In this document: positions 1 through 37,589 of the stretch, piece by piece
Layout: each line of letters opens with the position of its first letter
How positions within the stretch are numbered: the first letter of the stretch is position 1
DNA from: Candidatus Magasanikbacteria bacterium CG1_02_41_34
GTDB taxonomy: Bacteria > Patescibacteriota > Patescibacteriia > Magasanikbacterales > UBA922
DNA length: 39,101 nucleotides
NCBI GenBank assembly: GCA_001871445.1
Contig: MNVD01000013.1
Coordinates: 1-39,101, forward strand
Reading direction: 5' to 3'
Notes under the pieces: generated by a model
Seen by the model: the letters and a program-made list of their open reading frames with translations, nothing else
What the model was told of the DNA's origin: nothing
The model's database searches: none
Program-made: the position numbers and the translations under genes

Positions 1-3000
1 ATACTCCGTGCGAGTGAGTTCTTGTCCGCGTGGGTTACACGTGTTTGGTGCTCCTCGTGGCGTCGCTGTGAATTTTGTCTTTTGTCCAATATAGGTTGCA
101 ATAAACGGATGTGGTTTTACTACAATATTGTCTACCCCACACAATGTATTGTCGGCTTTTGTACGGAAGATCCATGAGAATGGTGTAAGAGATTGTCCAT
201 CTTGTGCAATCAATGCAACACCACCCACAGATTTGATATTATCCGTCAACGATACTTTGTAATAGGTATTTGATTCAAGCGGTGACGTAGGTTTTGGAGA
301 AAGGGTCACCTCGAGTTTACTCGTACTATCGATAGTAAATTTATTTGTTACATCTGAAAGATTGACACAATTTGGGTCAGCACACTGATAGACAAGCACT
401 CCCCCATTGTCATATGTCACAGGATCCATGTGACGACTAAATGTTGCCTTCACAACAGCATTCGGACACGACTCAGAACAATTTGGTTCAAATGAAACCA
501 CATGCGGTGGTCCGATGTTGATAAACAATGTGGATGTATTCGCCTCAAGACCCTGAGGGAAAGCCTCTTGAAGTGCAGGTTTTTCTGCAAAATCAGTAGA
601 CGCACTGAATGTCACACCATCTGCAGCTTCCTGCCTTGCAGCAGCCGTTGCTCTTGTATCTTTATAATCACCTGAAGCATCAGCTGAAATAGTTGCTTTG
701 TCAGTTCGGTTAGAAGACCAATTCCACCCAAGCCCATCGGCATTCAACAGAGTACAGGCTCTATCAGCTTTTCCTTTCAAATAATAATAAAATGGTAAAT
801 CTACATTATAGATGTCATGCAATGGTCCAATTTGTGTGACTGTTTTTTCTCTTGGGGTGATATATGCACTATCAAGACTACACAGACCAGTACCAGTTTG
901 AAAATCATACGAAAATGCGATTTCAGCATCATTGTAGACAGCATCAATAGGTACTCGTGCTTCGTCTATACGCAACGCAGTGCTCGTCGAATTTCCTCCA
1001 CCAACATCTTGATTTGGTGTTTTTATTCCTGTTGTGAGAAGCACACGATACCATGTATTTGGTAAAAAATTGGGGCTTGAAAGATCACTAGCTTTTTTGA
1101 TAACTATAATACTTCCTGCATCTCCTGGTTGGACATTCAAATCCAAACTTGACACCTTATCTGCTTCTGTATAGGTACAGTCAATATCTCCTGTCGTCGA
1201 TCCACACGTATAGAGTAGGACAGTATTTTCCGTCACGGTTGTAGGATCAATGGTCATACTGACAGCTACCTGTGCAGTCGCATTGATACACATCTCCTCT
1301 GACTCTGCCCATTCGGACGAAGGAACTGGAGACGCTTCGACACTTTTTCCTTTGTACACACCATCATCTTCACACTGGACAAGAACATAAGGAACTGTAG
1401 GTGGAATCCCGGTGGTAAATCGCCATACATATCCAGAACTTCTGACATCTCCTTCACAAATAGTCTTCCATGAACCAGTATCAGGTCCCTCTGTACAACA
1501 TTGTAGTGCAGTATCTCCAGGAACACTTCCTTGAATACGACAATCCGTAACAAAATAATTGATACTGTTTCCTCTACTGCCATTTGCAGTAATAGCAATC
1601 GGCCAACGCCCAAGAGGCATCGTAGGATGGAGGCTTGCTTCCCTAAATCCGACACTTGATGTGATAGTTTTTTTGTCAGTACTGACTCCCCATCTAGCAT
1701 CACTTGAATTATCACCCCAAGCTATCCAACTGTCACTATCCAAATTACTTACATCAGTTGAATTCGTAATATCTCCAGCACCATTCCAAAAATATAAATT
1801 TGTAGAACCACGTGCAAAGTTTTTTCCACTAAAGACGAGTCCTGGATGCTCATCTGGTAGAATAGCAGGTCCTTGATTTGGATTAAGCTGACAAATACTT
1901 GGTTTTGCCTCACCGCTTTGCACTGAAATCAGGTCAATTGTTCCATCGGAAGACAATCCATTATCTGCACGCTCTACGGTGACGTAGTATGTTCCAAGAC
2001 CACTAAAAGCATCTGGAATATCTATAATAATTTGTGTATCTGTCCACGTATTTTGACATGGGGCTGGTGGAACTGTGAGTTCGATACACGTATCAGCATC
2101 ATTATTATGAGAACAAGTCGCACCAGCATTTGGAGAAATATATACATAGCCTGCTTGTCCAAAATGTGCACCAAAAATTGTGACAAAACTACCAGGCGTT
2201 GGATCTGAGGGGTCGATGTCCGTAATAAGTGGTTTTACGTCAGAAAGATCTGGGCGTGATACACGAAATGGTACACCATTGCTTTCAACTCCATTTTTCT
2301 CAACATGAACAAGTGGATTTCCTGGTGCAACAGCAAGAGGAACGTTTGTGTTGATAACAGTGTCTTCCCACCCAAAGACACTGGCAGCAAATGGCGTGTC
2401 TGTACCGATATCAAAGGTAATGTTGTCGCTATCTCCACGCGTACCAAATTTTCTTCCCATTGCACGAATACGTATTCCCGGTGGCCCAGCAGTTACACCA
2501 TCAAGGAGACCTTCCTGATCACCATCCACGACAACAGCACATAATCCAGGTCGGGTAGTATTGGTAAAACGAAAGAGGCCATCTGGATGCAACACACCAT
2601 CTCCGTCAGTATATACAGGCTTTGGACCAAAGTCATCATTGGTAGCGTCTGATAAATGAGATGTACTATTGGTAATACGTATAGCAGACGACGTCACAGT
2701 GCCTGCAAAATCTGCATTCCTAGGAACTTCTGCAATGACATACGTATTGTTCCATGCATTTCCTGTGAGAACACCACTACATTCGACAATATTAGCAGGA
2801 AGCCAGCCTTCCTCATCCGATCCAAATTCCACAGCACCTTCTTCGTTACCAAAATAATATCCTCGAATAGTAACCCAGTTTCCTGGTGCCCCATCCATAG
2901 GATCTACATCGGTAATTTTTGGTTGAACAACACATTGTCCTTCTACGCACAGCCCGCTTGAACATTGGTAATCTTCGATACAGATAGTATCACTTCCACA

Positions 3001-4317
3001 CGCTCCTCCAATATCGATATCTGTCTCGCCAAGCTCTTCATCCAGGACTTCGTTAAAACAATGACTGCCCACCAACACAAACATGCCCGTCTGAACCGCA
3101 GACACATGGTGATCGATATCCCACGTGATAAAGGTATATCGATATTGCTTTGGATGATTGGCATATCGAACAATGCCTGAAGAGAAAAATAATTCTTTGC
3201 TAAATAAATACGCCTTATCAGAAAACGTGCCTGATGATGGACCACGAAAGAAATCCACAGGAGTTTCAGAACCATCGGTTGCTTCAAGATGAAATTGCGT
3301 ATAGCCAACACCATTGTCGTCGTCTGTAGTACCGACAAAGGTATAAGTCTCACCAGCAGGAAGACGTGGTTCAAGATCTGTAAAAGGACTGTTTGTTTCT
3401 GGATTAATGATACCCACACCTTGCCAAGTTGGATCACCGACATCATTTGCTTCTGTAGGCGTCTCAAAAGATGACTCTTGCATACCGTCAAATGACGTAC
3501 AAGCAGTAGCACCAAAAGAAATACCTTCACCGTCTGTTGCAACAACCGTATCATTGATACTCACATGGTATTCACCAAGAGGTACACATTCTGTCCCATC
3601 AACATAGTTTACCTCACTACATTCAGCAGAGACAGTATTGCCAAGAGACATCACTGCTTCGATGACTTTTTTGTCTGTGCCAGGAACAACACGATACGTG
3701 AAATTTCTTGATACATCGATGGTATTTTTCAAAATAGTAAATACTTCAGCCGCAGGTGTTCCAACAGACTTTGTAAAGACTGCACGAATAACAATATTAT
3801 TCACACCAGAAATAGACTGATTTGGAGTAATACTCTGCGCAACAAATATATCAGCACATGGATCCTGAAAATTACATGACACTACGTCAGTACAACCCAG
3901 TGGTGAATTTGTATCACCAATCTCTCCCCCACCAGCGGCTTGATTGAATCGTGTAATGATAAATTGAACAATAGCAAACGAGAACAAGATAATAGTAAGC
4001 CCTATTACCCCATTTCGCAAAATCATTTTGGCTTGGGATATTTTGTCTTCATTGCCACCAGCAGTCATGTATACATAGCCACCATACAACACAATAATGA
4101 CAGCAATAAGACCGAGGAAGCCAAGAATAGCACGGATGACCTTCACGACCGTGACTTGCAAAGGTTGGCTACTCAGTCCAAGACCCTGATCCTGTACATT
4201 TTGTACCCCAAAATCAGCAGCTTGCGCAAATACTACGTGAGGAACAAGAAAAACCAGGAGCGATAGCAACAGAGTTCCGATAAATATCCTTTTGTATATA
4301 GTATGATGTTGAAACAT
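1..4317 (-). CDS. Giant secreted protein with pilin-like N-terminus and IPT/TIG repeats (C-terminus off the window)
   Basis: The minus frame is open from the ATG at 4317 to base 1 without a stop, giving at least 1439 residues; the C-terminus lies outside the window. Residues 1-31 are a signal peptide ending in VFA. Residues about 55-120 hold two hydrophobic helices around a GGNEDK turn, as in VirB2/TrbC-like pilins found in CPR bacteria (the Mbov_0395-type pilin-like family). IPT/TIG-type beta domains start near residues 465 (ITDVDP), 694 (ITDIDP) and 804, a Cys-rich knot lies near 438-462, and an SbsA-like Ig domain starts near 1264. The gene starts 15 bases after a paralogous giant gene, so the two are probably co-transcribed. 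The role is inferred to be a surface or pilus-associated adhesive protein anchored by the hairpin. The family assignment is by pattern only. Confidence 0.85.
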   Translation of the reverse strand, partial: MFQHHTIYKRIFIGTLLLSLLVFLVPHVVFAQAADFGVQNVQDQGLGLSSQPLQVTVVKVIRAILGFLGLIAVIIVLYGGYVYMTAGGNEDKISQAKMILRNGVIGLTIILFSFAIVQFIITRFNQAAGGGEIGDTNSPLGCTDVVSCNFQDPCADIFVAQSITPNQSISGVNNIVIRAVFTKSVGTPAAEVFTILKNTIDVSRNFTYRVVPGTDKKVIEAVMSLGNTVSAECSEVNYVDGTECVPLGEYHVSINDTVVATDGEGISFGATACTSFDGMQESSFETPTEANDVGDPTWQGVGIINPETNSPFTDLEPRLPAGETYTFVGTTDDDNGVGYTQFHLEATDGSETPVDFFRGPSSGTFSDKAYLFSKELFFSSGIVRYANHPKQYRYTFITWDIDHHVSAVQTGMFVLVGSHCFNEVLDEELGETDIDIGGACGSDTICIEDYQCSSGLCVEGQCVVQPKITDVDPMDGAPGNWVTIRGYYFGNEEGAVEFGSDEEGWLPANIVECSGVLTGNAWNNTYVIAEVPRNADFAGTVTSSAIRITNSTSHLSDATNDDFGPKPVYTDGDGVLHPDGLFRFTNTTRPGLCAVVVDGDQEGLLDGVTAGPPGIRIRAMGRKFGTRGDSDNITFDIGTDTPFAASVFGWEDTVINTNVPLAVAPGNPLVHVEKNGVESNGVPFRVSRPDLSDVKPLITDIDPSDPTPGSFVTIFGAHFGQAGYVYISPNAGATCSHNNDADTCIELTVPPAPCQNTWTDTQIIIDIPDAFSGLGTYYVTVERADNGLSSDGTIDLISVQSGEAKPSICQLNPNQGPAILPDEHPGLVFSGKNFARGSTNLYFWNGAGDITNSTDVSNLDSDSWIAWGDNSSDARWGVSTDKKTITSSVGFREASLHPTMPLGRWPIAITANGSRGNSINYFVTDCRIQGSVPGDTALQCCTEGPDTGSWKTICEGDVRSSGYVWRFTTGIPPTVPYVLVQCEDDGVYKGKSVEASPVPSSEWAESEEMCINATAQVAVSMTIDPTTVTENTVLLYTCGSTTGDIDCTYTEADKVSSLDLNVQPGDAGSIIVIKKASDLSSPNFLPNTWYRVLLTTGIKTPNQDVGGGNSTSTALRIDEARVPIDAVYNDAEIAFSYDFQTGTGLCSLDSAYITPREKTVTQIGPLHDIYNVDLPFYYYLKGKADRACTLLNADGLGWNWSSNRTDKATISADASGDYKDTRATAAARQEAADGVTFSASTDFAEKPALQEAFPQGLEANTSTLFINIGPPHVVSFEPNCSESCPNAVVKATFSRHMDPVTYDNGGVLVYQCADPNCVNLSDVTNKFTIDSTSKLEVTLSPKPTSPLESNTYYKVSLTDNIKSVGGVALIAQDGQSLTPFSWIFRTKADNTLCGVDNIVVKPHPFIATYIGQKTKFTATPRGAPNTCNPRGQELTRTEY

Positions 4318-4332
4318 GGTATTACGCATATA

Positions 4333-7300
4333 TTATTCTTGTTCTTTACCAAATTGTGTTGGACTTATCGTATCATGTTGTAACAATTCAAGACACGTGT
4401 CTGTATCCGGTTGAGCTTTGTCTATACCAGTACCAATACTGACACAGCCAGTATCAGTACTACTCGTCACTTGAAAACCTGATGGCACACATGACGAAAT
4501 ACTTTTTATACTTCCATCATCATAGTAGGTAATCTCGCATGAAGGTGTACTGATACCTGTCTGAGGACCGCTTGCTATAGGTCCGCGCCCAGGATACATA
4601 CAAAATTGATTCATCGCCTTTACCGATCCAGGAATACTTGGAAAATACCAATGATCAATGCCATACATCCCAAATGGTCTTGCAGGATGAAACAAACTCA
4701 ACGTAGTTTTTGTAACTCCTGCAACATCACTATCAAATGATCGCTGATAATATCCCAACCCAACACCTGAATCTGGATATTCCACAAGCGATGCGCTATT
4801 TGACGACATCATTTCTTTGCTAAAATGTATATCAACAGGAATAAACGGCGCAACACCAGGTTGATCAATACCTGGAGATACTTGTTCTATATATGGGGCT
4901 TCACTGTCAATTCTATTTTCCACCGTAAAAAACCACCAGTAATTGTCTGGAAACTGTTCACTTGGTTCATTAGTTTTTAATTGACTAATAGGTGGTTTAT
5001 GTTTCCACGAACCATCTGCTGCAGATGACAACACAAAATCATGTGCACCAGGTGCAACGCTCTGTCTTGCTCCAACATATTCTGGCGCACTATCCATAGC
5101 ATTAGCAGCGAGATCTTCTACACCATCAAAAAGACCTGCAGATACAAAACTATCGCCATCAGGAACATCAAGAGAGGCCGTACGAGCAAGTACAGAATAT
5201 GTCACGGTACATGCCTTATCCGCAGGATCACACAGTGTAGGCAAACAATAAATTGTTTCTCCACAACTATTGATACCACAAGCCTCATTTGAAACAAATT
5301 CAACCGTACGATACCCGTTGGTAATTGTCCACGCGCCATCGACAGTCGTTCGTATTCTTTTGTTTGCAATGAAAGCATTGCTACGTGCTCCGGCCATATC
5401 AAAAACAAAAATATTTTGACTTGGATATTTTACAAATACTCTGCCATTACTATGGGTAAAAGACGGAACTTCGTTAATTGAAGTAAGTGTTCCTTCACTC
5501 TCTGGATACGAAAATAACAATGAAGGATTGAGTGAATCTTCAGTAAGACTGAATACCTTCAGTGCACGAACTTGTCCGACAAACAATTGTTCATTGATCA
5601 CAAACAATGATTTCGCACTAGAGCCATTTATACCAAAGGCACTGTTGTTCAAATTTACTTGGCTAAAATGTATCTCTGTTTCAGGATGCGAAATATCTGC
5701 AATTTTAAGTGCAGAGGACTCTGTAATATATACAGCATCCCTATATACGGCTATATCTTGTGGCTGAAGACCTGGCGTTGTAGTCGCTACAATAACAGGT
5801 TGACTAAGATTACTCATATCAACAATACCAAACATACCATTCAAAGATCTCTTTATGAAGTATACGGCATTGTCCTGAATGGCAATGTGAGTAATAAACC
5901 CATTCTCTGTTGTAACAACGGTACTGATGATATCACCAAACCTTCCTGAACCAGCATCCATATCAATAATACGAATTTCTTTTCCATCAGCAACAACTGC
6001 ATAATTTTCCAAAAATTCTAGTTCCTGAGGATACTCTAATTTGCCACTAAGGCTATCGATCTTCTCGCCTGTATCAGTATCAAATATAACAATATCTTTA
6101 CCAACGATCATATACAGTTTTCCATCGTGCAATTTGAGTGAATGGATTACCTGTTGAGTTGTAAAAAATGTTGATACATTGGTAGGATCATTCAAATCAA
6201 TTTTTTTTGCGCTTGTACTATCTGCTACATAGAGATATCTATCGTCAGTCGCCATAGCAAGCGCTGTCCCTACATAGGGAGCAATCTCACTAAATGTAAA
6301 TGGAGGTAACGTTTCTTCAGTAGCAGAGATGATTTCCTCTGAAGGACGCATATCTACAATAATATTGTGAAAACTTGAAGTTTCGCCAAGTACTCCCTGT
6401 ACCATCATAGGGTCAACTGGCTCATTGAACGTAATTTTGAGTACTCTATTCTTTTCTACACTTTCTCCAGGATTTGGGGAGACATCAACAACATACGGAG
6501 GACTCAAATCTACTTCGGTATTTGTTTCAAATTCCCAAATATAGCTGTCGTCACGGCGTGCGGCAAAAACAGAAGCACCATCGGTATTTAATACATCATT
6601 GGTAATCGTCACACGATGCCACTGATCAGATTCTTCATTTCCAAGCAATTCTTGTGGCTTGAATACAAACGTGTGCACTTCACCATTGGCATCGTATGAG
6701 GCCTGTGCTGTTGCAGCGATAGCATCACCTTCAGTTGTACCATTTTTATCGTCTAGTCTATTGACGGCAATCACATTCGTTTTCAAGGTATCGCATACTC
6801 GTGTCGTTCCAGTGTCGATACAGTCACCAAATATTCCTGACCCATTTGCATCATCAATAAGACTCTTTGGGTCAATACTTTCAGTAAAGGTAACAACTAT
6901 CTTCGTATTTCTATATACGTCTGCCTGATTTGGCTCAGGATAATGGTCTTTGATAACACTTCCAAGAGAACCAACACTTATAAATACTTGTTGACCAGGT
7001 ATTTGCTGTTGACCAGGAGGAATAGAACCACTTACACCACCAAGAATATTGATAGCAAACTGAACAATGATAAACGAAAATAAAATAATCGCAGTCCCAA
7101 TCACTGCATTTTTGATAATCGTTTTTCCTTGTTCTACTTTTTCCTCATTCCCTGCCGACGTCATGATCGTATATCCTGCATAGATAATCATGACGACAAG
7201 TATGAGACCGAGAAACCCAAGCAGAATACGAATGACGCGAAGCATGATCACCACGATAGAATCTCCTGACAGTGCAATCTGTCCACCGACTTGTGCAACG

Positions 7301-7437
7301 CCAAAATCACCTTGTGCATGTACAGCAGATGGCGCAAAAGAAAACAGAACAAGAGCTACAAAAAACACAAGAAGTGCTACCAAAAACGGAGCACTCTTCG
7401 TATGTCTGCAATACAATGATTTGAATATATGTCTCAT
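4333..7437 (-). CDS. Giant secreted protein with pilin-like N-terminus, Ig-like domains and LVIVD-type propeller
   Basis: This 1034-residue protein begins with a signal peptide (residues 1-41, ending VHAQ). A pilin-like two-helix module with a SAGNEEK turn follows at about 60-130; it resembles the same module of the next gene and VirB2/TrbC-type pilins. An SbsA-like Ig domain follows (VTFTESIDP near 180) and another starts near 315 (ITFNEPVDP). Residues about 390-660 contain repeated segments of the type VVADGKEIRIIDMD and DIAVYRDAVYITESSALKI, typical of LVIVD-type beta-propeller repeats. The C-terminal third is again beta-rich and Cys-containing. It is first in a two-gene unit and has its own promoter at 7464-7492. 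The likely place is the outside of the cell, anchored in the membrane. The specific ligand is unknown. Confidence 0.85.
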   Translation of the reverse strand: MRHIFKSLYCRHTKSAPFLVALLVFFVALVLFSFAPSAVHAQGDFGVAQVGGQIALSGDSIVVIMLRVIRILLGFLGLILVVMIIYAGYTIMTSAGNEEKVEQGKTIIKNAVIGTAIILFSFIIVQFAINILGGVSGSIPPGQQQIPGQQVFISVGSLGSVIKDHYPEPNQADVYRNTKIVVTFTESIDPKSLIDDANGSGIFGDCIDTGTTRVCDTLKTNVIAVNRLDDKNGTTEGDAIAATAQASYDANGEVHTFVFKPQELLGNEESDQWHRVTITNDVLNTDGASVFAARRDDSYIWEFETNTEVDLSPPYVVDVSPNPGESVEKNRVLKITFNEPVDPMMVQGVLGETSSFHNIIVDMRPSEEIISATEETLPPFTFSEIAPYVGTALAMATDDRYLYVADSTSAKKIDLNDPTNVSTFFTTQQVIHSLKLHDGKLYMIVGKDIVIFDTDTGEKIDSLSGKLEYPQELEFLENYAVVADGKEIRIIDMDAGSGRFGDIISTVVTTENGFITHIAIQDNAVYFIKRSLNGMFGIVDMSNLSQPVIVATTTPGLQPQDIAVYRDAVYITESSALKIADISHPETEIHFSQVNLNNSAFGINGSSAKSLFVINEQLFVGQVRALKVFSLTEDSLNPSLLFSYPESEGTLTSINEVPSFTHSNGRVFVKYPSQNIFVFDMAGARSNAFIANKRIRTTVDGAWTITNGYRTVEFVSNEACGINSCGETIYCLPTLCDPADKACTVTYSVLARTASLDVPDGDSFVSAGLFDGVEDLAANAMDSAPEYVGARQSVAPGAHDFVLSSAADGSWKHKPPISQLKTNEPSEQFPDNYWWFFTVENRIDSEAPYIEQVSPGIDQPGVAPFIPVDIHFSKEMMSSNSASLVEYPDSGVGLGYYQRSFDSDVAGVTKTTLSLFHPARPFGMYGIDHWYFPSIPGSVKAMNQFCMYPGRGPIASGPQTGISTPSCEITYYDDGSIKSISSCVPSGFQVTSSTDTGCVSIGTGIDKAQPDTDTCLELLQHDTISPTQFGKEQE

Positions 7438-7573: not shown

Positions 7574-8017
7574 TTACTGCAAGAGCTTTATAACGACAGT
7601 TTTAACTCGAGTTCCATCCGCTTGTCCTTGCACTTTTTTCATGACAGCTCCCATGGCCTTGCCTATATCTTGTGGCGTAGTTACCCCTATTTCACTGAGT
7701 GTCTCAGCAACAATCTTTTCAAGTGCTTCATCTGCAAGTTGCTCTGGAAGATATGTCTCGAGAATCCCAATATCTGCCATATTCTGTGCAACAAGATCGT
7801 CTCTTCCGCCAGCCTGAAAATCAATAATAGCATCTTTGAGTTGTTTTACTTGTGCAGCAACACTCGCCAGAGCATCATCGTCAGTAAAAGCTTCACCTTT
7901 CTCGATCATAGTATTTTTTATAGCTGCAATAGCATTGCGTAATACACGCACGTGCTCGCTGTTTTTTGCCTTCATGGCAACAACCATATCAGCATGAATG
8001 TTTTCTTGAAATGTCAT
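7574..8017 (-). CDS. GatB/YqeY domain protein
   Basis: The 147-residue protein is of normal length for stand-alone YqeY proteins, which resemble the C-terminal tRNA-binding tail of GatB. Family-typical stretches are ILETYLPEQL near residue 85 and the C-terminal GKAMGAVMKKVQGQADG. The exact cellular role of YqeY is not established; an amidotransferase or tRNA-related role is usually assumed. The ATG is preceded by an A/T-rich leader without a clear ribosome binding site. Strong terminators lie on both sides (7522-7554 and 8072-8099), so it is probably expressed alone. No gatA/gatC are in the window. Confidence 0.85.
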   Translation of the reverse strand: MTFQENIHADMVVAMKAKNSEHVRVLRNAIAAIKNTMIEKGEAFTDDDALASVAAQVKQLKDAIIDFQAGGRDDLVAQNMADIGILETYLPEQLADEALEKIVAETLSEIGVTTPQDIGKAMGAVMKKVQGQADGTRVKTVVIKLLQ

Positions 8018-8432: not shown

Positions 8433-10025
8433 TTACTTCAACAACTTCATCACTTCTCGCACAATCTTGCCTTGATCAATAATTTCTTGAATCCCTGACT
8501 CCATATCGCGGATGATAATAGTACCATCCTGTACTTCTTTTTGTCCCAGAATCAACGTATGTGTCACACCAATTTCGTTTGCTTGTTCGAGCTGAGACTT
8601 GAGTGATGATTTACCAAGATTGTGATACGTAATAATATTTTCCTGTCGCAGGTCTTCGATCAGTCGAAGCGTATGCTGTCGTGCCTGATCACCAAGCTGT
8701 GCAAAATACACAGGTGATTTTTTTGGTGCATGACGAAGTGCTTTTGGATTGTTTCGAAGATCTTTCAGTGCGAGCACCACCCTATCAAGGCCAATCGCAA
8801 ATCCTGCCGCAGGTGTCTGAGGGCCGCCAAGCTGCTCGATAAGACGATCATATCGTCCTCCCCCACCAAGTGCTGTTTGACTTCCTTCTTCTGTATCTGA
8901 ACGAAACAATTCAAATACCGTGTCTGTGTAGTAGTCGAGACCACGTACTAGTGTTGCGTCGAGAATATAGGGGATATTCAAGTGATCCAGATATTCGAGA
9001 ACACGCATGAAGAATTTCTTTGATTCTTCGCTGAGCCAGTCGATAATCTGTGGCGCTTCTTCGATGACTTCCTTATCCTGTGGATCTTTTGAATCAAGAA
9101 TACGTAATGGATTTTTTGCAATGCGCTTTTTTGAAAGTTCTGACAAATAACTCCGCTTTGAGCGCAGGTACGCTGTAAGTTCAATCACATAGTTTGCTCT
9201 ATCTTCTGGCGAACCAATACTGTTCACACGAACGGTTGTTTCTAAACCTAGATCTTTCAAAAAGTTGTATGCAACAGTAATCAGCTCAGCATCAACAGCT
9301 GCATCGCGCGTCCCCATGGTCTCACAATCAAATTGACGAAACTCTCGATAGCGTCCTGCTTGAGGACGATCATGACGAAAAAGGGATCCGCTCGTCCAAA
9401 CCTTGATAGGCTGTGGATCACTTTGCATACCATGCGTGATGTATGCACGTGCAAATCCTGCGGTAAACTCAGGACGAAGACCAATTTCAGATCCATCTTT
9501 GTCACCAAACACGTACATTTCTTTATCTACAACATCAGTCCCCTTTCCGATGGAACGAGTAAAAAGTTTTGCATCTTCAAGCACAGGTACCTCCATATAT
9601 TGAAAATTGTACGCCTCTGCCATTTGTTCTGATGCTCGATAGACACTACGCCAAAACTTTGCATCTTTTGGATGCAAATCTCTCATACCTCTGAGCGGTT
9701 GTATTTGTGGTATTTTTTCTTTTTTTGATTTTTTTTCTCCGTTGTATGGTGCCGCAATCTTTGCAGGAGCAGATGGTTTCACAGGAACATTCTTTTCTAC
9801 TTTCTTTGGTACCACAGTTTTTTTTCCACTTGCGACAGATTTTGAAACAGGTTTCTTTTTTGCTACAGGTTTCGTTTTTGTTGTTTTTGATTGCACCACT
9901 TTTTTCTTTGCTATTGGTTTTTTCATCACAAGTTTTTTTATTTTTTTTACTACACCTTTTTTTCCGCCCGAGGCGGATCCGCCTCGGGCGGACTTTTTTG
10001 TTGAAGATATTTTTCGTTGTGGCAT
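8433..10025 (-). CDS. hisS: Histidyl-tRNA synthetase with basic N-terminal extension
   Basis: This class II synthetase charges tRNA-His with histidine in the cytoplasm. The catalytic part starts near residue 109 (PLRGMRDLHP). It shows the motif 2 region (VWTSGSLFRHDRP), the histidine-binding motif LVRGLDYYTDTVFE and the GGGGRYDRL stretch, and ends with a normal anticodon-binding domain. Residues 1-108 are an added Lys/Ala/Pro/Val-rich low-complexity tail, unlike standard HisRS of about 420 residues. Residues 12-21 of this tail (SARGGSASGG) are coded by a perfect palindrome at 9964-9991. It lies 43 bases downstream of lepB and is probably co-transcribed with it. No clear terminator follows; the rpsU promoter starts directly after. 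Confidence 0.95.
   Translation of the reverse strand: MPQRKISSTKKSARGGSASGGKKGVVKKIKKLVMKKPIAKKKVVQSKTTKTKPVAKKKPVSKSVASGKKTVVPKKVEKNVPVKPSAPAKIAAPYNGEKKSKKEKIPQIQPLRGMRDLHPKDAKFWRSVYRASEQMAEAYNFQYMEVPVLEDAKLFTRSIGKGTDVVDKEMYVFGDKDGSEIGLRPEFTAGFARAYITHGMQSDPQPIKVWTSGSLFRHDRPQAGRYREFRQFDCETMGTRDAAVDAELITVAYNFLKDLGLETTVRVNSIGSPEDRANYVIELTAYLRSKRSYLSELSKKRIAKNPLRILDSKDPQDKEVIEEAPQIIDWLSEESKKFFMRVLEYLDHLNIPYILDATLVRGLDYYTDTVFELFRSDTEEGSQTALGGGGRYDRLIEQLGGPQTPAAGFAIGLDRVVLALKDLRNNPKALRHAPKKSPVYFAQLGDQARQHTLRLIEDLRQENIITYHNLGKSSLKSQLEQANEIGVTHTLILGQKEVQDGTIIIRDMESGIQEIIDQGKIVREVMKLLK
9964..9991. repeat. Perfect 28-bp palindrome inserted in hisS
   Basis: The sequence is CCGCCCGAGGCGGA followed by its exact reverse complement, with GGATCC at the centre. 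It is in frame and GC-rich within an A-rich coding stretch. A diverged copy is found in smc at 13558-13579. This looks like a small mobile palindromic repeat of REP type. Confidence 0.8.
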
Positions 10026-16280: not shown

Positions 16281-17192
16281 CTAGCCACCTATAATTACAA
16301 TCTTAACATTGTTTTTTAATTTTTTATCCTCTACAACACCAAAAATAATTCTAGCATGCTCATCTAAATGATCTTGTATTTTTTCTCCGATAGTCTGTAT
16401 TTCCTCTAAAAGCATATCTTTCCCAACATGAATGACATATAACGCTTTTTTTATTTTTGATAATTTTATATCTAAAATGGAATCTGTAAACATGTTTTCT
16501 GTAAGAGAAGCAATCTCTTTTTTTGATCCTTCAACACTACTAAAATAAAGCATACCAACATCCTGCACCGTTGTTTTCAAATCTGAAAAATCAACATTTA
16601 TAATCCCAAATTGCATAACAAGATCGGCAAGAAGCTGCATCATGTGAACTATTACCCTGTCTACCTGCTGTAATCCTTCATTTGCCGATTCTCCTTTTGC
16701 CAAAATTTTATCACTATTGATGCATAATACTCCATCTACGACTTTTTCCAGTATCTCTTTTCCTTCTTCTTTATATACCTTCTTTTTCTTGCCCTCAAAG
16801 AGAAATGGTGTAGCACTCACATAAAACACAAGAGTGTCAGTCTGTTTTGCGATCTCTGCGATATCGGCAGACTGCCGTACATTTATTGGGTTGGATATAT
16901 TCCCAAGTATAAACATTATATCTGTTTCAGAAGACACTTTCTTGATCTCATTTGATTTACCACACAGAGCATCCACTTTTTCATGAGGAAGTGCCTCTGC
17001 AAGCAAATAATTTTCTGGTAATTCTATTTGTTCCCGTATATCTTTTCCATATCGCAAGGATTTTTGCGTACCAATAGACACCAAACGTATCCCTTTTTCT
17101 TCCAAGGAAACAAGTCTATTTAGAATATTTGTTCCCCTCCCCCCAATAGAAACGACAGTCGTATTGAGAGAAAATTTTTTTTTAGATGTCAT
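16281..17192 (-). CDS. Degenerate FtsZ-like protein (predicted non-GTP-binding)
   Basis: The 303 residues align end to end with the FtsZ core. The T1 loop is kept in outline (IGGRGTNILNRL against VGGGGGNAVEHM in E. coli). TPFLFEGKKKK and EEGKEILEKVVDGVLCINSDKIL match the central region, INVDFSDLKTTVQDVG matches the T7 synergy loop with its N and both D residues, and the end IIFGVVEDKKLKNNVKIVIIGG matches the C-terminal domain. The nucleotide loops are lost: T2 NTD reads GTQ, T3 GAGANP is absent, and the T4 tubulin signature GGGTGTG reads NISNPINV. FtsZ's disordered tail is missing. The ATG lies one base after the stop of the upstream membrane gene, so they are coupled. It is inferred to act on true FtsZ filaments. 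The pair is visibly A/T-richer than its neighbours. Confidence 0.75.
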   Translation of the reverse strand: MTSKKKFSLNTTVVSIGGRGTNILNRLVSLEEKGIRLVSIGTQKSLRYGKDIREQIELPENYLLAEALPHEKVDALCGKSNEIKKVSSETDIMFILGNISNPINVRQSADIAEIAKQTDTLVFYVSATPFLFEGKKKKVYKEEGKEILEKVVDGVLCINSDKILAKGESANEGLQQVDRVIVHMMQLLADLVMQFGIINVDFSDLKTTVQDVGMLYFSSVEGSKKEIASLTENMFTDSILDIKLSKIKKALYVIHVGKDMLLEEIQTIGEKIQDHLDEHARIIFGVVEDKKLKNNVKIVIIGG

Positions 17193-24157: not shown

Positions 24158-26299
24158 TCAACGTGTCGTGACAAAACGATGCTTCACTTTTTCATATTCA
24201 TAGACCGCATCTTGTGATAATTGCATTGCCAAACCAATGTATTGCAATGGATCAAGTACTGAAAGCATCTGCTGTTTTACACCAAAATCTACATCAAGTG
24301 ATTCTATAAATACTCGTAATTCTTCCTGTTGCATATTTGCTCCACGCACCTTTTGTTTTAATACATCATATGCATCGGTTCTTCCATGCACACGTAACAT
24401 TGTTTGAAGCGCTTCGGTAACAACTTCTGGATGCTCGCGCAATTCTTTCTTTGCATATGCGACATCAGGTCTAATCAGGTCAAGGGCAATATGAAGATGC
24501 TTCATGGCAACGAGCACATACCCAAATGCTTCACCGTACGAACGTTCGAATTCATGATCAGACAAATCTCGTTGTAATCGAGAAACATCGAGTTCGTTTG
24601 AGAATGTATTGATGAATCCATTTGCTTTTTTTATACTTCCTTCTGCTACTTCTGCAAACCACGGATTTACCTTATGTGGCATAACAGAAGAACCAACATG
24701 ACTTTCTATCTTGGAAAAATATATGGTACGCAGTGATGCATAGAGCGACAGATCTTGTGCAAGATCGCGCGTGATATTCCCTATTTCTTGCAACGCTTGA
24801 AAGAGCTGAATGACATCTACATGCGTTCCCCGCTGATCAGTCCAGAGTGCGGTATCAAATACAAGAGTCCTACATAAATATGCGCTATAGCCTTTCCAAT
24901 CAATCTCTGGATACGCAGCAACAAATGTATTGTAATTTCCTACGGCTCCATTTATTTTCCCAGTCAATTTGACTTCTTCTACTCGTGTTATTGCTGCGGT
25001 ATATCGAGCCAAATACCCTGCAAAAATTTTTCCAAATGTTGTAGGACTTGCTGGTTGCATATGAGTCCTCCCCATGACTGGATCGGAAAGATATTTCTCT
25101 GTGAGTTCTTTTAGCCTATCTGTGATGGCAAATACTTCCGGGAATGCGATATCTTTCATTGCCCCATCAAGCATTTTTTTATACGCCAAATTATTAATGT
25201 CTTCTGAAGTGACGAACAAGTGAATAGCAGGAATAACATCTGCAAAAGGTGTCTTCCACAGTTGTTCCTGTATCCATAGCTCACATGATTTTACATCATG
25301 CTCTGTCGGTCCTATACCATGCCTACCGAGATGATCATATTGCAACACTTGATATGCATCTTTTTCTGAAAAATGTGTATATAGATTTCGTAAGGTTTCT
25401 TTTTCTTGCTGTGAAAACAATCGTATGACAACCCCATTCGTATATTCACTCAGTGCAATGACATGCTCTATTTCAACCATGATACGGTGTTTGTGAAGTG
25501 CGTATTCAGAAAAATAATGTCTGAGTTCATGCGACATCACATGGTGTCTTCCATCAAGCGCAGACGTATTGTAGAGTGAACGCTTGTACAACTCTGCACG
25601 CGTCACATTCTCTAGTGTCTTGCCGATATGCTGTAAATCTTCGACAAGACAGGCTTCTTCTATACCGTGCTCGAGAAACAATTCTTTTGTGGTCTGCCCC
25701 TGCAAGAGAGCAAGAAATGCTATGTGCTGATAATAACTTGCATAATAATCATCCAAGTGATCACCTATCACCAGTATTTGCGACGAAGCAATACCACGCT
25801 CTTTGAGCAATTGCAATGCACCTTCAAATGCCTTTGGATGTGGTTTTCTATATTCCATCTTTTCTGGTGCATGGATGAATGCAAAATCATTTACCGAAAA
25901 TCCAGCTTGTTGCAAACGATCTTCGATCATGCGAACTCTATTTGTCACAAGCCCTACCACAATCCCATGTGTCACCAGATACTTCACAGCATCGACCGCT
26001 CCTACGGTAGGTTTATACTGCTTTGCTGGCGCAGTCTCACGATATTTAACAAGAACAGTCTCCCACAATTGTTCATTGGCATGTACTCCAGGAAATACAG
26101 TTTGAAATATTTCTTCAAATGGCATATTTACAGCTTGCACCTTCGAGATCTGTTCATCTGATGGTACGTGTACTTGAACACCCTGTTTCTGCAGTATATC
26201 AACCGTTTCTTTTATATGTTCCAATACAAAACGATCTGTCGCAATGAGTGTATTGTCTACATCAAAGATGACTGCTTTTATTTCCTTATTTGTATACAT
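24158..26299 (-). CDS. purB: Fusion of HAD-family phosphatase and adenylosuccinate lyase
   Basis: The 713-residue protein joins two enzymes. Residues 1-230 are a HAD hydrolase with motif I DVDNT (Asp13/Asp15), Thr119 in LVTN, Lys152 in RKPHP and GDHLDD (Asp180, Asp183/184). Residues about 235-713 are adenylosuccinate lyase, which splits adenylosuccinate into AMP and fumarate: SALDGRHHVMSHELRHYFSEY at 246 onward, GRTHMQPASPTTFG (His413) and the signature SSVMPHKVNP at 537-546. The frame is continuous with no internal stop. The ATG is one base after the purA stop, so the two consecutive steps are made from one mRNA. The HAD substrate is unknown; a nucleotide or phosphoglycolate-like role is possible. 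Confidence 0.93.
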   Translation of the reverse strand: MYTNKEIKAVIFDVDNTLIATDRFVLEHIKETVDILQKQGVQVHVPSDEQISKVQAVNMPFEEIFQTVFPGVHANEQLWETVLVKYRETAPAKQYKPTVGAVDAVKYLVTHGIVVGLVTNRVRMIEDRLQQAGFSVNDFAFIHAPEKMEYRKPHPKAFEGALQLLKERGIASSQILVIGDHLDDYYASYYQHIAFLALLQGQTTKELFLEHGIEEACLVEDLQHIGKTLENVTRAELYKRSLYNTSALDGRHHVMSHELRHYFSEYALHKHRIMVEIEHVIALSEYTNGVVIRLFSQQEKETLRNLYTHFSEKDAYQVLQYDHLGRHGIGPTEHDVKSCELWIQEQLWKTPFADVIPAIHLFVTSEDINNLAYKKMLDGAMKDIAFPEVFAITDRLKELTEKYLSDPVMGRTHMQPASPTTFGKIFAGYLARYTAAITRVEEVKLTGKINGAVGNYNTFVAAYPEIDWKGYSAYLCRTLVFDTALWTDQRGTHVDVIQLFQALQEIGNITRDLAQDLSLYASLRTIYFSKIESHVGSSVMPHKVNPWFAEVAEGSIKKANGFINTFSNELDVSRLQRDLSDHEFERSYGEAFGYVLVAMKHLHIALDLIRPDVAYAKKELREHPEVVTEALQTMLRVHGRTDAYDVLKQKVRGANMQQEELRVFIESLDVDFGVKQQMLSVLDPLQYIGLAMQLSQDAVYEYEKVKHRFVTTR

Positions 26300-34012: not shown

Positions 34013-36349
34013 TTATGCAACGATCTTATCACTTTCACGTACAACTTTTGTATACAATAACTTTTGAAATCCGAAAAAAATACTACGTATCTCCTTTACA
34101 TCACCCAATTTTTGTTCAGCATCAGCCATTGCGTGATACTTGAGGCGCAATAGATCGGGAAGTTTTTGCTCATCCAATTCTTCAACACCCTCTTCGATGT
34201 ATTTTTCAAGAACAAAGGTAATAAACTCTTGTGCATTAGAATCAAGTTCTTTAAAAATTTTGCCCTTCGTTTCGTCTACGCGTTCCTTTCTTGAAATTGG
34301 TGTACTTGCAAAAGAAACATAGGCGAGTACATCGAACAAATCACTGTCTTCAGCGTCTATCATTTTTTGTAAATCCTCAAGTTGTTCTTTTCCATAACCC
34401 AAATTCGCGATGTTATCAAGAAATACTTTTCTGGTTTTTGGATTAGACCAAATAGTACGTAATTCTTCTTCGCTCTTGAAAAAGTCAGGCAAATCCCCAA
34501 ACATTTTTTCCAGGAATTCTTGTGCAGACATGGGTGTACCATCTGCACTCCAAAATGAAGTAGAAATCATATGACTGATCTCTCGTTCTTTTCCATCACG
34601 AAGTTTAATTTTTATTTTCTCCGGTCGCTCATAGGTAACAAAGGTAGTAATAGTTTTACTTGTTGCAATACTTGCACCTTTTTTATGGGTATCTTCTGGG
34701 TTTTCATCAGTCTGATCTATTGGCTCACCATCCCACTCTGGATCACTGAAGTGTTTATACGCCCCTACAAAATCGTAGATCGTAAAATACTCTTTCCCTT
34801 CAAACAACCGTGTACCACGCCCTACAATTTGTTTAAATTCAATCATGGAGTTTACTGGACGCATGAGTACAATGTTGCGTACATTTCGGGCATCTACACC
34901 AGTTGATAGCTTTTGTGATGTAGTAAGTATCGTAGGAATAGTTTTTTCGTTATCTTGAAAATCCCGTAAATGTTGCTCGCCAAGAGCACCGTCATTTGCA
35001 GTGACACGTGCACAGTAAAGAGGATTTTTGCTCTCGGCATGCTGATTGATAAGGTCACGAACAGCAGCCGCATGTGCTTGCGTGGCACAAAATACTATTG
35101 TCTTTTCTTTTTGGTTGATTTCATCTAGAAAAATACGAACACGTTTTTCCTCTCGTTCTTTAATCTGGATGATTCGATTGAAATCTTCTTCTACATACAC
35201 TTTTCCTGCTTCAATTTCGCCTTCTACAATTTCATCATCAGAGGTGTAGACATATTCATCAAGTGTTGTTTGAATTCGTTTTACTTTAAACGGTGTAAGG
35301 AATCCATCGTTTATACCACTCTTGAGTGAGTAGGTATATACGGGCTCACCAAAATATTTGTACGTATCAACATTGTCTATCCTTTTTGGAGTAGCGGTAA
35401 GACCAATTTGTACAGCAGGAGAAAAATGTTCGAGGATAGCCCGCCACGTAGATTCATCATTGGCGCCACCTCTGTGACACTCGTCAATAATAATACAATC
35501 AAAAAAGTCTGGTTCGTATTCTCCATAATACGCCGTATCATTTGGCCCACTCATGAATGTTTGAAAAATAGTAAAAAAGATACTGCCATTGGTAGGGACA
35601 TGGCCTCGTCTTCGAATATCTGCAGGATTGATTCGAACCAGTGCATCTTCGGGAAACGCAGAAAATGAGTTGAATGCTTGGTCAGCAAGAATGTTTCTAT
35701 CTGCGAGAAACAAAATACGAGGACGACGATTGCCATCTCTCTTTGTATTCCAGCGAGTATGAAAGAGTTTCCAAGCAATTTGAAATGCAATGTATGTTTT
35801 TCCTGTTCCAGTCGCAAGTGTCAGAAGGAGTCGATTGTTTTCTTCTGCAATGTTATCGAGAACTTTATGTACTGCATTTTCTTGATAATATCGAGGTTTC
35901 TTGGTACCTCCAATATCTTCAAATGGAGTAGTGCGAAACGTCTGTCGCCATTCATCATGATGACTATATAATCGATTCCACAACTCCTCAGGCGTAGGAA
36001 TGATATCCACAATTTTTTCTTCACCAGTACGCATGACTATTTCATAGAGCTCTGTGCCATTACTTGCATATGCATACGGAGCTTGCAATTTTTCTGCGTA
36101 GAGTTTTGCTTGTGCCACACCTTCGGTATAACCCAGCTCTGCTCGTTTTGCTTCAATCACAGCCAGTTTTTCACCGTTATACTCGAGCACATAGTCTGCA
36201 ATATCTGGTTTCGCACGTGTTCCGCCAACCTGAATACGCCCATCGGTAATACGAAATTCCCGAAAGACTTTTGATCCTTCTGTAGTCCCCCAGCCAGCGT
36301 GCACAAGCTGTGGATCTATATATTGTGCTCGGGTATCTGCTTCATTCAT
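34013..36349 (-). CDS. hsdR: Type I restriction enzyme, R subunit
   Basis: The 778-residue motor-nuclease translocates and cuts unmethylated DNA. An N-terminal PD-(D/E)xK nuclease is visible as Asp49 in KPDIADYVLEY and Glu66/Lys68 in VIEAKRAE. The helicase part has ATGTGKT at 179-185, DECH at 289-292, GLTATPKR and VGRGTRLFEG. It is of the shorter HsdR type (about 780 residues). Its promoter gives a leader of only about 5 nt, so it can be made apart from the upstream toxin-antitoxin pair. hsdS lies 1.2 kb upstream; hsdM is not in the window. Confidence 0.93.
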   Translation of the reverse strand: MNEADTRAQYIDPQLVHAGWGTTEGSKVFREFRITDGRIQVGGTRAKPDIADYVLEYNGEKLAVIEAKRAELGYTEGVAQAKLYAEKLQAPYAYASNGTELYEIVMRTGEEKIVDIIPTPEELWNRLYSHHDEWRQTFRTTPFEDIGGTKKPRYYQENAVHKVLDNIAEENNRLLLTLATGTGKTYIAFQIAWKLFHTRWNTKRDGNRRPRILFLADRNILADQAFNSFSAFPEDALVRINPADIRRRGHVPTNGSIFFTIFQTFMSGPNDTAYYGEYEPDFFDCIIIDECHRGGANDESTWRAILEHFSPAVQIGLTATPKRIDNVDTYKYFGEPVYTYSLKSGINDGFLTPFKVKRIQTTLDEYVYTSDDEIVEGEIEAGKVYVEEDFNRIIQIKEREEKRVRIFLDEINQKEKTIVFCATQAHAAAVRDLINQHAESKNPLYCARVTANDGALGEQHLRDFQDNEKTIPTILTTSQKLSTGVDARNVRNIVLMRPVNSMIEFKQIVGRGTRLFEGKEYFTIYDFVGAYKHFSDPEWDGEPIDQTDENPEDTHKKGASIATSKTITTFVTYERPEKIKIKLRDGKEREISHMISTSFWSADGTPMSAQEFLEKMFGDLPDFFKSEEELRTIWSNPKTRKVFLDNIANLGYGKEQLEDLQKMIDAEDSDLFDVLAYVSFASTPISRKERVDETKGKIFKELDSNAQEFITFVLEKYIEEGVEELDEQKLPDLLRLKYHAMADAEQKLGDVKEIRSIFFGFQKLLYTKVVRESDKIVA

Positions 36350-36360
36350 AAGAATGGCTT

Positions 36361-36389
36361 AATATAGCAGAAAACCCTCCTTTTGTCAA
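36361..36389 (-). promoter_or_regulatory. hsdR promoter
   Basis: TTGACA (36384-36389), 17 bp ending in TGC, TATATT (36361-36366) on the minus strand. The predicted start of transcription is about 5 bases before the ATG. Confidence 0.75.
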
Positions 36390-36406
36390 TAGATTGTAGG
36401 TGTATT

Positions 36407-36799
36407 CTACAGCAAATGACGATATTCTGGATAGTGTTCCTTTATCAGCCTTTTCCAATTTGCCGTCTCCGCTCCACCGCCAAGATCGTTTTTATGATAT
36501 ACAAGCAATATAGACACTCTTTTGTACTCTTCATGCATTGCCAGTATACATCTATTCCCAGAAGCATTGGGAGACTTTTTGGTCCCTGCCACACTAAATT
36601 TACTCTTTATAATTTTCACACTTGTACTATCTACAATAGTCTCTGCTACATCCTTTTTCAGCAACATATCAATACGTTCAAACTGTCCAATAATAGCGCG
36701 AAGCGTGACATCCCATGCACTACGATACTTCTTCTCAAAGCTTTTTATAAAATGTTTATGAGCAAAGGGCTCAATACTCACGGTGTAGTTTTCCTCCAT
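36407..36799 (-). CDS. RelE-like toxin paired with a Panacea antitoxin
   Basis: The 130-residue protein has a helical N-terminus (EPFAHKHFIKSFEKKYRSAWDVTLRAI), then IKSKFSVAGTKKSPNASGNRCILAMHEE, a hydrophobic strand VSILLVYHKND and a C-terminal WKRLIKEHYPEYRHLL. The order of basic helices, core strands and a His/Tyr-rich end fits a diverged RelE/ParE fold. It begins 8 bases after the Panacea gene, the usual order antitoxin-toxin. The toxin call rests mostly on this context; direct fold evidence is weaker. Confidence 0.62.
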   Translation of the reverse strand: MEENYTVSIEPFAHKHFIKSFEKKYRSAWDVTLRAIIGQFERIDMLLKKDVAETIVDSTSVKIIKSKFSVAGTKKSPNASGNRCILAMHEEYKRVSILLVYHKNDLGGGAETANWKRLIKEHYPEYRHLL

Positions 36800-36807
36800 A
36801 TGCTCGT

Positions 36808-37494
36808 TTAGTACACCCCAGCAGGGTCTTCCTGTGTTATCAGCTCGTAGGGGATGATTTCATTATCTCTACACAAAAAATATGGCATTTGAGCGTGTGT
36901 AAATTTAACAATTTCAGGCGTTCTCTTCTTTTTCCATTTTTTTGCAATTTTTTTAATAAGTTTCAATTCTTCTTCAGATAAACTTTGTTGCTTATTTTTT
37001 TTCGCGGTTTCTGTCTCACTGATTAAAATGGCTTCTCCTTTTCTTTCTACAGTAATGACACCTGACTCTTCGAGCTCAGTGAGTGCTCTGAAGTACATGT
37101 CTGGGACAGGTCCATAGGGAAGTTTTTTGTACTTCATACCACTCATGCTTTCCAGGTGTTCATAAAACCAACCAAAATCAGCAAGGTATAAAAGTTTTGC
37201 AAGTTTTGTTTTTGGAATGCATCCATCGACATCACTTCCTGCAGTACGAAGATATGCAATAAGCATGTCCTTATATTTTTCGTAATTCGGGATCATCCCA
37301 GATTCAAGATCTTCTATGTCAATACCAAACATATCCGCCAGCTTGTGAGCTTCGGAGAGCATGAGTTCACGTTTACCTTGCTCGACAGCAAGATACGAAG
37401 TCCGAGCAATCTCAAGACGGTCTGCAACTTCTTGCTGTGAAAAGCCTCGCTTTTCACGTAACTCTTTTATGAATTGTGAGTATGCTTGGCTCAT
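36808..37494 (-). CDS. HTH-Panacea (DUF4065) antitoxin
   Basis: The 228-residue protein has an XRE-type helix-turn-helix at about 7-62 (LREKRGFSQQEVADRLEIAR, then VEQGKRELMLSEAHKLADMF). A Panacea/DUF4065 domain follows at about 75-190 (KLAKLLYLADFGWFYEH, LPYGPVPDMYFRALTELEESG). Panacea domains are known as promiscuous antitoxins that neutralise many unrelated toxins; the HTH would allow autoregulation. The C-terminus is Lys-rich. It is first of a two-gene pair and its promoter contains a TGTCGACA palindrome at the -35 position. The pair is placed between hsdS and hsdR. Confidence 0.83.
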   Translation of the reverse strand: MSQAYSQFIKELREKRGFSQQEVADRLEIARTSYLAVEQGKRELMLSEAHKLADMFGIDIEDLESGMIPNYEKYKDMLIAYLRTAGSDVDGCIPKTKLAKLLYLADFGWFYEHLESMSGMKYKKLPYGPVPDMYFRALTELEESGVITVERKGEAILISETETAKKNKQQSLSEEELKLIKKIAKKWKKKRTPEIVKFTHAQMPYFLCRDNEIIPYELITQEDPAGVY

Positions 37495-37529
37495 ATACGT
37501 ATTGAATTAGGGATATTCTTATATATCAT

Positions 37530-37558
37530 AGTATAGCATATGTGTCAATATGTCGACA
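37530..37558 (-). promoter_or_regulatory. Promoter and probable operator of the Panacea pair
   Basis: TGCTATACT (extended -10, 37530-37538) on the minus strand with TGTCGACA, a perfect palindrome at 37551-37558, where the -35 should be. A repressor bound there would block RNA polymerase; autoregulation by the HTH protein is inferred. The stretch 37495-37589 has no gene. Confidence 0.5.
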
Positions 37559-37589
37559 ATCTATGTACGAAATAATGACACTTGCAACA

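Follow-up and report, generated by a model that had tools for sequence, protein, structure and literature searches.

Tandem giant proteins built on a T4SS_pilin hairpin, candidate host-contact proteins of a Magasanikbacteria-like patescibacterium

Genes A and B and their surroundings

The window, that is, the whole stretch of 39,101 nucleotides analysed here, is contig C32 of the genome of Candidatus Magasanikbacteria bacterium CG1_02_41_34 (G000; 1.04 Mb in 36 contigs, 96.75% complete), an ultra-small bacterium of the parasitic type. Two neighbouring genes, named A and B, encode very large surface proteins (Table 1). They lie in tandem on the minus strand, as an earlier note made from the sequence had described them, and are separated by 3 bases. 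A is complete, and the reading frame of B runs without a stop to the end of the window, which is also the end of the contig. The note had proposed to complete this left gene, and its continuation was found in the same genome at the start of contig C3, using the B protein of a relative as query: a frame of 2241 aa is identical to the window's B in 112 of the 117 overlapping residues. Joined across this imperfect overlap, B would be about 3567 aa long, with 142 Cys, and would occupy about 1% of the genome. Downstream of B on C3 lie genes of 128, 312 and 403 aa, followed by YbeY-, DgkA-, FtsA- and FtsZ-like genes, all assigned by order, size and sequence start.

Table 1. Features of the A-B locus in the window
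Feature	Position	Strand	Remarks
Gene A, pilin-hairpin surface protein	4333..7437	-	complete ORF, 1034 aa
Gene B, pilin-hairpin giant	1..4329	-	first 1443 aa; continues on C3:2-6727 (L159)
A signal peptide, residues 1-41	7315..7437	-	hydropathy; A41/Q42 nearly invariant
A hairpin, residues 56-135, PF18895	7033..7272	-	profile match; predicted helices 61-92, 98-136
A Ig-like region, residues ~155-365	6343..6975	-	Big_5; beta strands in model
A beta-propeller insert, residues ~375-690	5368..6315	-	LVIVD repeats; AlphaFold2 model; VIA-align
A Cys-containing C-terminal region, residues 697-1034	4336..5349	-	invariant Cys and other columns in alignment
B hairpin, residues 52-133	3931..4176	-	PF18895
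B arm within contig	1..3930	-	Soli_cterm, Big_5
yqeY, conserved neighbour directly upstream of A	7574..8017	-	PF09424; order kept in relatives
hisS, conserved neighbour (context)	8433..10025	-	PF13393; order kept in relatives

The N-terminal hairpin

Both proteins begin with a signal peptide followed by a two-helix hairpin, in agreement with the note, and in A the signal peptide is probably cleaved near A41/Q42. Against the T4SS_pilin profile PF18895 (cut-off 26.6) the hairpin scored 33.0 bits in A and 30.2 bits in B, and the same profile was matched by all 66 A/B hairpins scanned (E<=0.01). The note had likened the hairpin to VirB2/TrbC-type pilins and had suggested an HMM comparison, whose outcome was divided: the kinship with T4SS pilins stood, whereas assignment to VirB2/TrbC proper did not. 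PF04956 (TrbC/VirB2) reached 17.2 bits in B, below its cut-off of 27.9, the window's A was not listed in the search with this profile, and 13 of the 66 hairpins matched it at E<=0.01, alongside unrelated membrane families. A search of solved chains with the hairpin profile gave no sequence match; when the hairpin model was submitted to Foldseek, nothing matched at E<=0.001, and the 50 matches listed were generic helix pairs with no pilin among them. The traits of T4SS_pilin, namely two hydrophobic helices joined by a short turn and preceded by a signal peptide, are present in A and B. The turn reads SAGNEEK in A and AGGNEDK in B, and the turn and glycine positions G49, M53, G57 and G75 of A4 are invariant. 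With 1034 and about 3567 aa, A and B are unlike small stand-alone pilins; among the PF18895 matches listed for the phylum genomes, most lie in frames of 93-300 aa. The hairpin domain is filed here, by its profile score, under T4SS_pilin, and the proteins A and B themselves are not called pilins.

Hydropathy analysis of 21 A and 21 B proteins from the family loci, the window's own pair included and some B cut by contig ends, predicted a signal peptide and two transmembrane stretches near the N-terminus in every one of them. In the window's A and in one other A the first helix was scored as two adjacent stretches. Downstream of the hairpin no hydrophobic segment was found in any of these 42 proteins, over up to 4856 residues. 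Each of A and B is thus predicted to have a signal peptide, then a T4SS_pilin hairpin that is the one segment in the membrane, and C-terminal to it a very long arm, and the note's minimal proposal, a membrane anchor shared by both proteins, is borne out to that extent.

Domains and structure of the arms

The note had described arms of Ig-like, IPT and propeller repeats. Profile searches found Big_5 in both arms and LVIVD repeats in A, which agrees with the Ig-like part and with a propeller in A; the IPT/TIG part is indirect for the window, where B passes TIGR03437 (38.8 vs 29.05), and TIG PF01833 is clear in the B of one relative (7.8e-17). An AlphaFold2 model of A, built on an alignment of 42 sequences (mean pLDDT 81), predicted helices at residues 2-34, 61-92 and 98-136, a disordered linker and then beta domains. 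Residues 376-685 of the model match beta-propellers (VIA-align Z of about 28, rmsd 2.4-3.8 A, 265-288 residues aligned), and when the whole of A was submitted to Foldseek the propeller was the sole matching part among the matches listed. This propeller is not a general feature of A: it is an insert that 4 of the 21 aligned proteins contain. An Ig-like stalk combined with a surface anchor, a trait of fibrillar adhesins, is present in the predicted architecture (Big_5, strands of the model, the hairpin as sole anchor).

The arms of B vary in content and size. B proteins of relatives carry TIG, VWA, Big_5 and BNR-type or Cys-rich repeats, in sets that differ between the two examined. In 15 family loci the complete B proteins measure 2726-4662 aa. 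Those of 24 named loci measure 829-3450 aa, and the shortest of them includes unread bases; a B frame of about 14,000 aa in one relative consists mostly of masked bases and was dropped from these length statements. As a separate observation, the motif YW[HYS]VF[NK] occurs about 40-60 residues before the C-terminus in 11 of 21 family B proteins (e.g. L038, L045, L048); the other 10 lack it, five of them being cut by contig or stretch ends.

Conservation of the pair

The closest named relatives by protein matches are Candidatus Magasanikbacteria, with additional matches labelled Uhrbacteria, Falkowbacteria and Komeilibacteria, which together we take to be the class ABY1. A protein search with A gave matches in 45 of 46 family genomes when hairpin-only matches are included, and in at least 40 of 46 the match extends to sequence beyond residue 200 (hand count of the matches listed). 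The arm of A without its hairpin, used as query, was found in 98 of 191 class genomes. A hairpin-bearing B follows A in 67 of the 79 named loci with an A arm; the remaining 12 are cut off by a contig end that lies inside A or no more than about 750 bases from it. In the phylum sample, frames of both A size and B size occur in at least 20 of 22 same-class genomes (hand count of the matches listed, one B length being inflated by masked bases). Further, the gene order signal peptidase I (PF10502), hisS, yqeY, A, B, three short genes, ybeY, dgkA, ftsA is found again in the loci read, apart from some exceptions and places where a contig ends. The three short genes 3′ of B encode membrane proteins, the first two with TSP3 repeats. 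In one Uhrbacteria locus A and B are separated by a frame of 165 aa (L100:8753-9250) that, by eye, resembles a stand-alone pilin.

This conserved neighbourhood, shared by the window's own genome as judged by gene order, would also suit a structural role in the envelope, in which A, B and the three downstream genes near ybeY, dgkA, ftsA and ftsZ form a scaffold linked to division or to the envelope and not an adhesin. Gene neighbourhood is the whole of its support, however, while the presence of propeller, VWA and TIG domains suggests that ligands are bound and the arm varies faster than the hairpin; we regard such a scaffold as improbable.

T4SS machinery and small pilins in the genome

The note had called for a search for a T4SS ATPase. 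A search of the genome with the profile PF12846 gave no VirB4 match, and this apparent absence was overturned by a family-specific protein query: a relative's VirB4 (P0003, which passes CD1110 with 348.1 vs 325) is 79% identical to a protein encoded at C36:81772-83613, which itself scored 96 bits vs 25.8 for P-loop_TraG. Because PF12846 missed this gene, a survey with the same profile (186 of 286 phylum genomes at E<=1e-5) is an undercount and was not used as evidence; the profile PF19590 matched nothing anywhere, controls included, and is uninformative. Beside the VirB4-like gene lies PrgI/VirB3 (45 bits vs 27), and the same locus contains a VirB6 candidate of 1415 aa, which stays just below the TrbL cut-off (24.5 bits vs 25.9), and a gene positioned where the VirB4 N-part would be expected. 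The note had let its idea stand or fall with a pilin relation of the hairpin and the existence of assembly genes, and both were found (PF18895; VirB4 and PrgI). Upstream of the VirB6 candidate there is also a giant frame of 3014 aa (L146:183-9227 on C36), with a sub-threshold CBM_4_9 match only.

PF18895 was found in 277 of 286 phylum genomes and at 14 places in the window's own genome: two in the window, 11 in a cluster on contig C5 and one on C36. Besides A and B, each of the 10 genomes examined encodes 5-16 small pilin-like proteins, 92 in total. In the 11-gene cluster (G000:C5:12860-23532, L015/L016) the hairpin stands on the C-terminal side of proteins of 305 and 472 aa, in the middle of one of 569 aa and close to the N-terminus or alone in others; upstream of the cluster, genes with type IV pilin-like starts were noticed by eye. 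The abundance of small pilins bears on the fibre that the note had imagined, in which the hairpin is the major pilin and every subunit carries a giant arm. Membership of the hairpin in T4SS_pilin would be in keeping with such a fibre, but the small proteins are better suited as major subunits, and crowding would be expected if each subunit bore an arm of 600-4700 aa, which makes such a fibre very unlikely. What is left of the fibre idea is that A and B are perhaps minor subunits and at least anchors.

With the relative's VirB4 as query, VirB4 was found in 40 of 46 family genomes. It gave no match in G006, G008, G019, G023, G028 and G035, and the A arm is present in four of these (G008, G019, G028, G035). 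By coordinates the distance between VirB4 and A is 15-35 kb in G002, G005, G015, G027, G031 and G041, and VirB4 is on another contig despite a long A contig in G016, G026, G030, G032, G043 and the own genome, G000. Taken together, A and B are kept as a tandem pair in many relatives, and the genome encodes, by sequence matches, VirB4-like, PrgI and small pilin-like genes and a VirB6-like candidate. That VirB4 and A are not always linked, nor always both present, favours plain anchoring, the main rival explanation, according to which a borrowed hairpin anchors ordinary giant adhesins or surface-layer-like proteins that have no contact with either the T4SS or the small pilins. The same reading is favoured by the hairpin being the only hydrophobic anchor of A and B, by the many contexts in which hairpins occur in the genome, including the C-terminal side of the two C5 proteins, and by the giant membrane proteins of Vampirococcus, for which no pilin link is stated in the accessible text (PMC8080830).

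Evolution of the hairpins

Comparison of 20 of the 21 sequences each of A and B, one A and one B being left out where the hairpin pattern was not found, demonstrated that the hairpin is more conserved than the arm (first 700 residues). Median identity was 0.55 vs 0.42 in A, with the hairpin higher in 189 of 190 pairs, and 0.56 vs 0.31 in B, with the hairpin higher in 190 of 190. Moreover, the hairpins of A and B resemble each other within a locus. After identical and near-identical loci had been collapsed (89 to 77 to 74), within-locus identity was 0.637 vs 0.504 when permuted (74 loci; 1000 permutations, maximum 0.524), and in the set of 77 loci, 2878 of 2926 locus pairs had a higher mean within loci than across them. 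There is hardly any excess in the arm just after the hairpin (0.223 vs 0.204), and the segment before the hairpin shows an excess too (0.367 vs 0.257). Identical residues used identical codons at 0.483 vs 0.415 expected, strongly so in 4 of 77 loci; this test on 77 loci replaced a 10-locus version reduced by trimming. The codon excess and the excess before the hairpin suggest that part of the likeness between A and B stems from gene conversion of the 5′ module. The hairpin tree contains 50 cherries, of which 16 join the A and B of one locus, 30 join A with A or B with B, and 4 join A and B of different loci, the pattern to be expected if homogenisation were repeated but not universal. In view of this pattern, co-evolution as the sole cause of the likeness was rejected as unproven; the likeness fits co-assembly, with gene conversion probably accounting for part of it. 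In one locus (L111) the two hairpins are 0.90 identical, with identical codons at 0.72 vs 0.42, which looks like a recent A-B conversion.

A second signal came from the small pilins. In the 10 genomes, three of them of one genus, the small pilin nearest to A/B prefers the A/B of its own genome (0.507 vs 0.468, 0 of 1000 permutations), as does the second nearest (0.481 vs 0.451, p 0.003), while the remaining small pilins show no such preference (0.335 vs 0.331, p 0.15). The signal is small. Since the nearest small pilins lie off the contig of A/B in 9 of the 10 genomes, and about 700 kb away in G027, local conversion is a poor explanation for the match. Neither this tracking of the genome's closest small pilins nor the invariant glycine and turn positions would be expected of a mere anchor, and both argue against plain anchoring, which we nevertheless count as a real possibility, at somewhat under even chances.

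Interpretation and relation to known systems

The reading that we prefer, and hold to be probable on balance, is that A and B serve host contact within the T4SS-pilin system of Patescibacteria, anchored by their hairpins and perhaps acting as minor pilus subunits. A and B would be exported by Sec to the surface of a Magasanikbacteria-like patescibacterium. Signal peptidase I is proposed as the enzyme that would cleave their signal peptide because a PF10502 gene is found near A and B in relatives. The hairpin would have its two ends on the outside and its lysine-bearing turn in the cytoplasm, so that the arms would project from the cell. With less certainty, the hairpin may allow both proteins to assemble with the small pilins at the machine of VirB4, VirB6 and PrgI, as minor subunits that bear arms, and the arms (Ig-like, TIG, propeller, Cys-rich, and VWA in relatives) would bind ligands on the host surface. 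Co-assembly as minor subunits and simple anchoring are both compatible with the sequence data. A more specific version is put forward only tentatively and is rather unlikely as a whole: A and B would be giant adhesins on a T4SS pilin domain, minor VirB2-type subunits co-assembling with small pilins, with hairpins kept matched within a genome, and would be the missing host-contact adhesins of the Patescibacteria T4SS.

The T4SS with VirB2-like pilin arrays described in Patescibacteria comprises PF18895 pilins, VirB4, a split VirB4 N-part, PrgI and VirB6 (PMC12102498, PMC10633639), and the own genome has PF18895 pilin-like genes, VirB4, PrgI, a gene at the position of the N-part and a VirB6 candidate. 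In Ca. Southlakia epibionticum the T4SS and its pilin array were essential for epibiotic growth (PMC10633639), and in Patescibacteria attached to archaea genes with a T4SS-pilin domain were highly expressed (PMC10936435). An adhesin of the PrgB type was not found in Patescibacteria, according to the accessible text of PMC12102498, and A and B fit the gap that this leaves. PrgB and VirB5 share with A and B the proposed role of a surface contact serving the T4SS, and A and B would supply the function held by them elsewhere; in contrast, PrgB is anchored in the cell wall via LPxTG and VirB5 sits at the pilus tip, neither being fused to a pilin hairpin in the available description (PMC12857230).

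The proposed arrangement has partial parallels. PilB of Streptococcus sanguinis is far smaller than B. Like A and B it joins a pilin module to a large adhesive one, but it is a type IV pilin, of a different superfamily and machine (PMC8179133). The giants of Vampirococcus lugosii are, like A and B, very long, membrane-located and equipped with adhesion-type domains in a CPR bacterium, but they belong to a different CPR lineage and the accessible text mentions no pilin hairpin for them (PMC8080830). The accessible texts on the Patescibacteria T4SS treat the pilins as small and do not mention a tandem fusion with giant arms (PMC12102498, PMC10633639); a 2025 survey that used PF18895 may, as far as its accessible text goes, have counted such fusions as pilins without comment. 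A description of a fusion of pilin hairpin and giant arm was not found in the open-licence literature, supplements aside. T4SS, pilin arrays and giant adhesins are already known, and the new element is the pilin domain that carries giant arms. The A-B pair is a good candidate for the means by which such cells attach to a host, and bears on the role of the T4SS in Patescibacteria and on how cells outside Saccharibacteria hold a host. A conserved giant pair with a T4SS pilin domain, in genomes that keep VirB4, provides named candidates for the contact step. If the reading is true, modular pilins, known for type IV pili, would be extended to the unrelated pilins of the T4SS.

Other genes in the window

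Three further places in the window were noted. Positions 16281-17192 encode an FtsZ_C-type protein of 303 aa with a weak tubulin match, possibly a divergent FtsZ paralogue, an FtsZ-like gene being placed by order on C3 as well. At 24158-26299 a single frame of 713 aa fuses a HAD-type hydrolase to adenylosuccinate lyase. Finally, 34013-38834 holds Type I restriction R and S genes with a gene for an antitoxin of the HTH/SocA-Panacea type between them.
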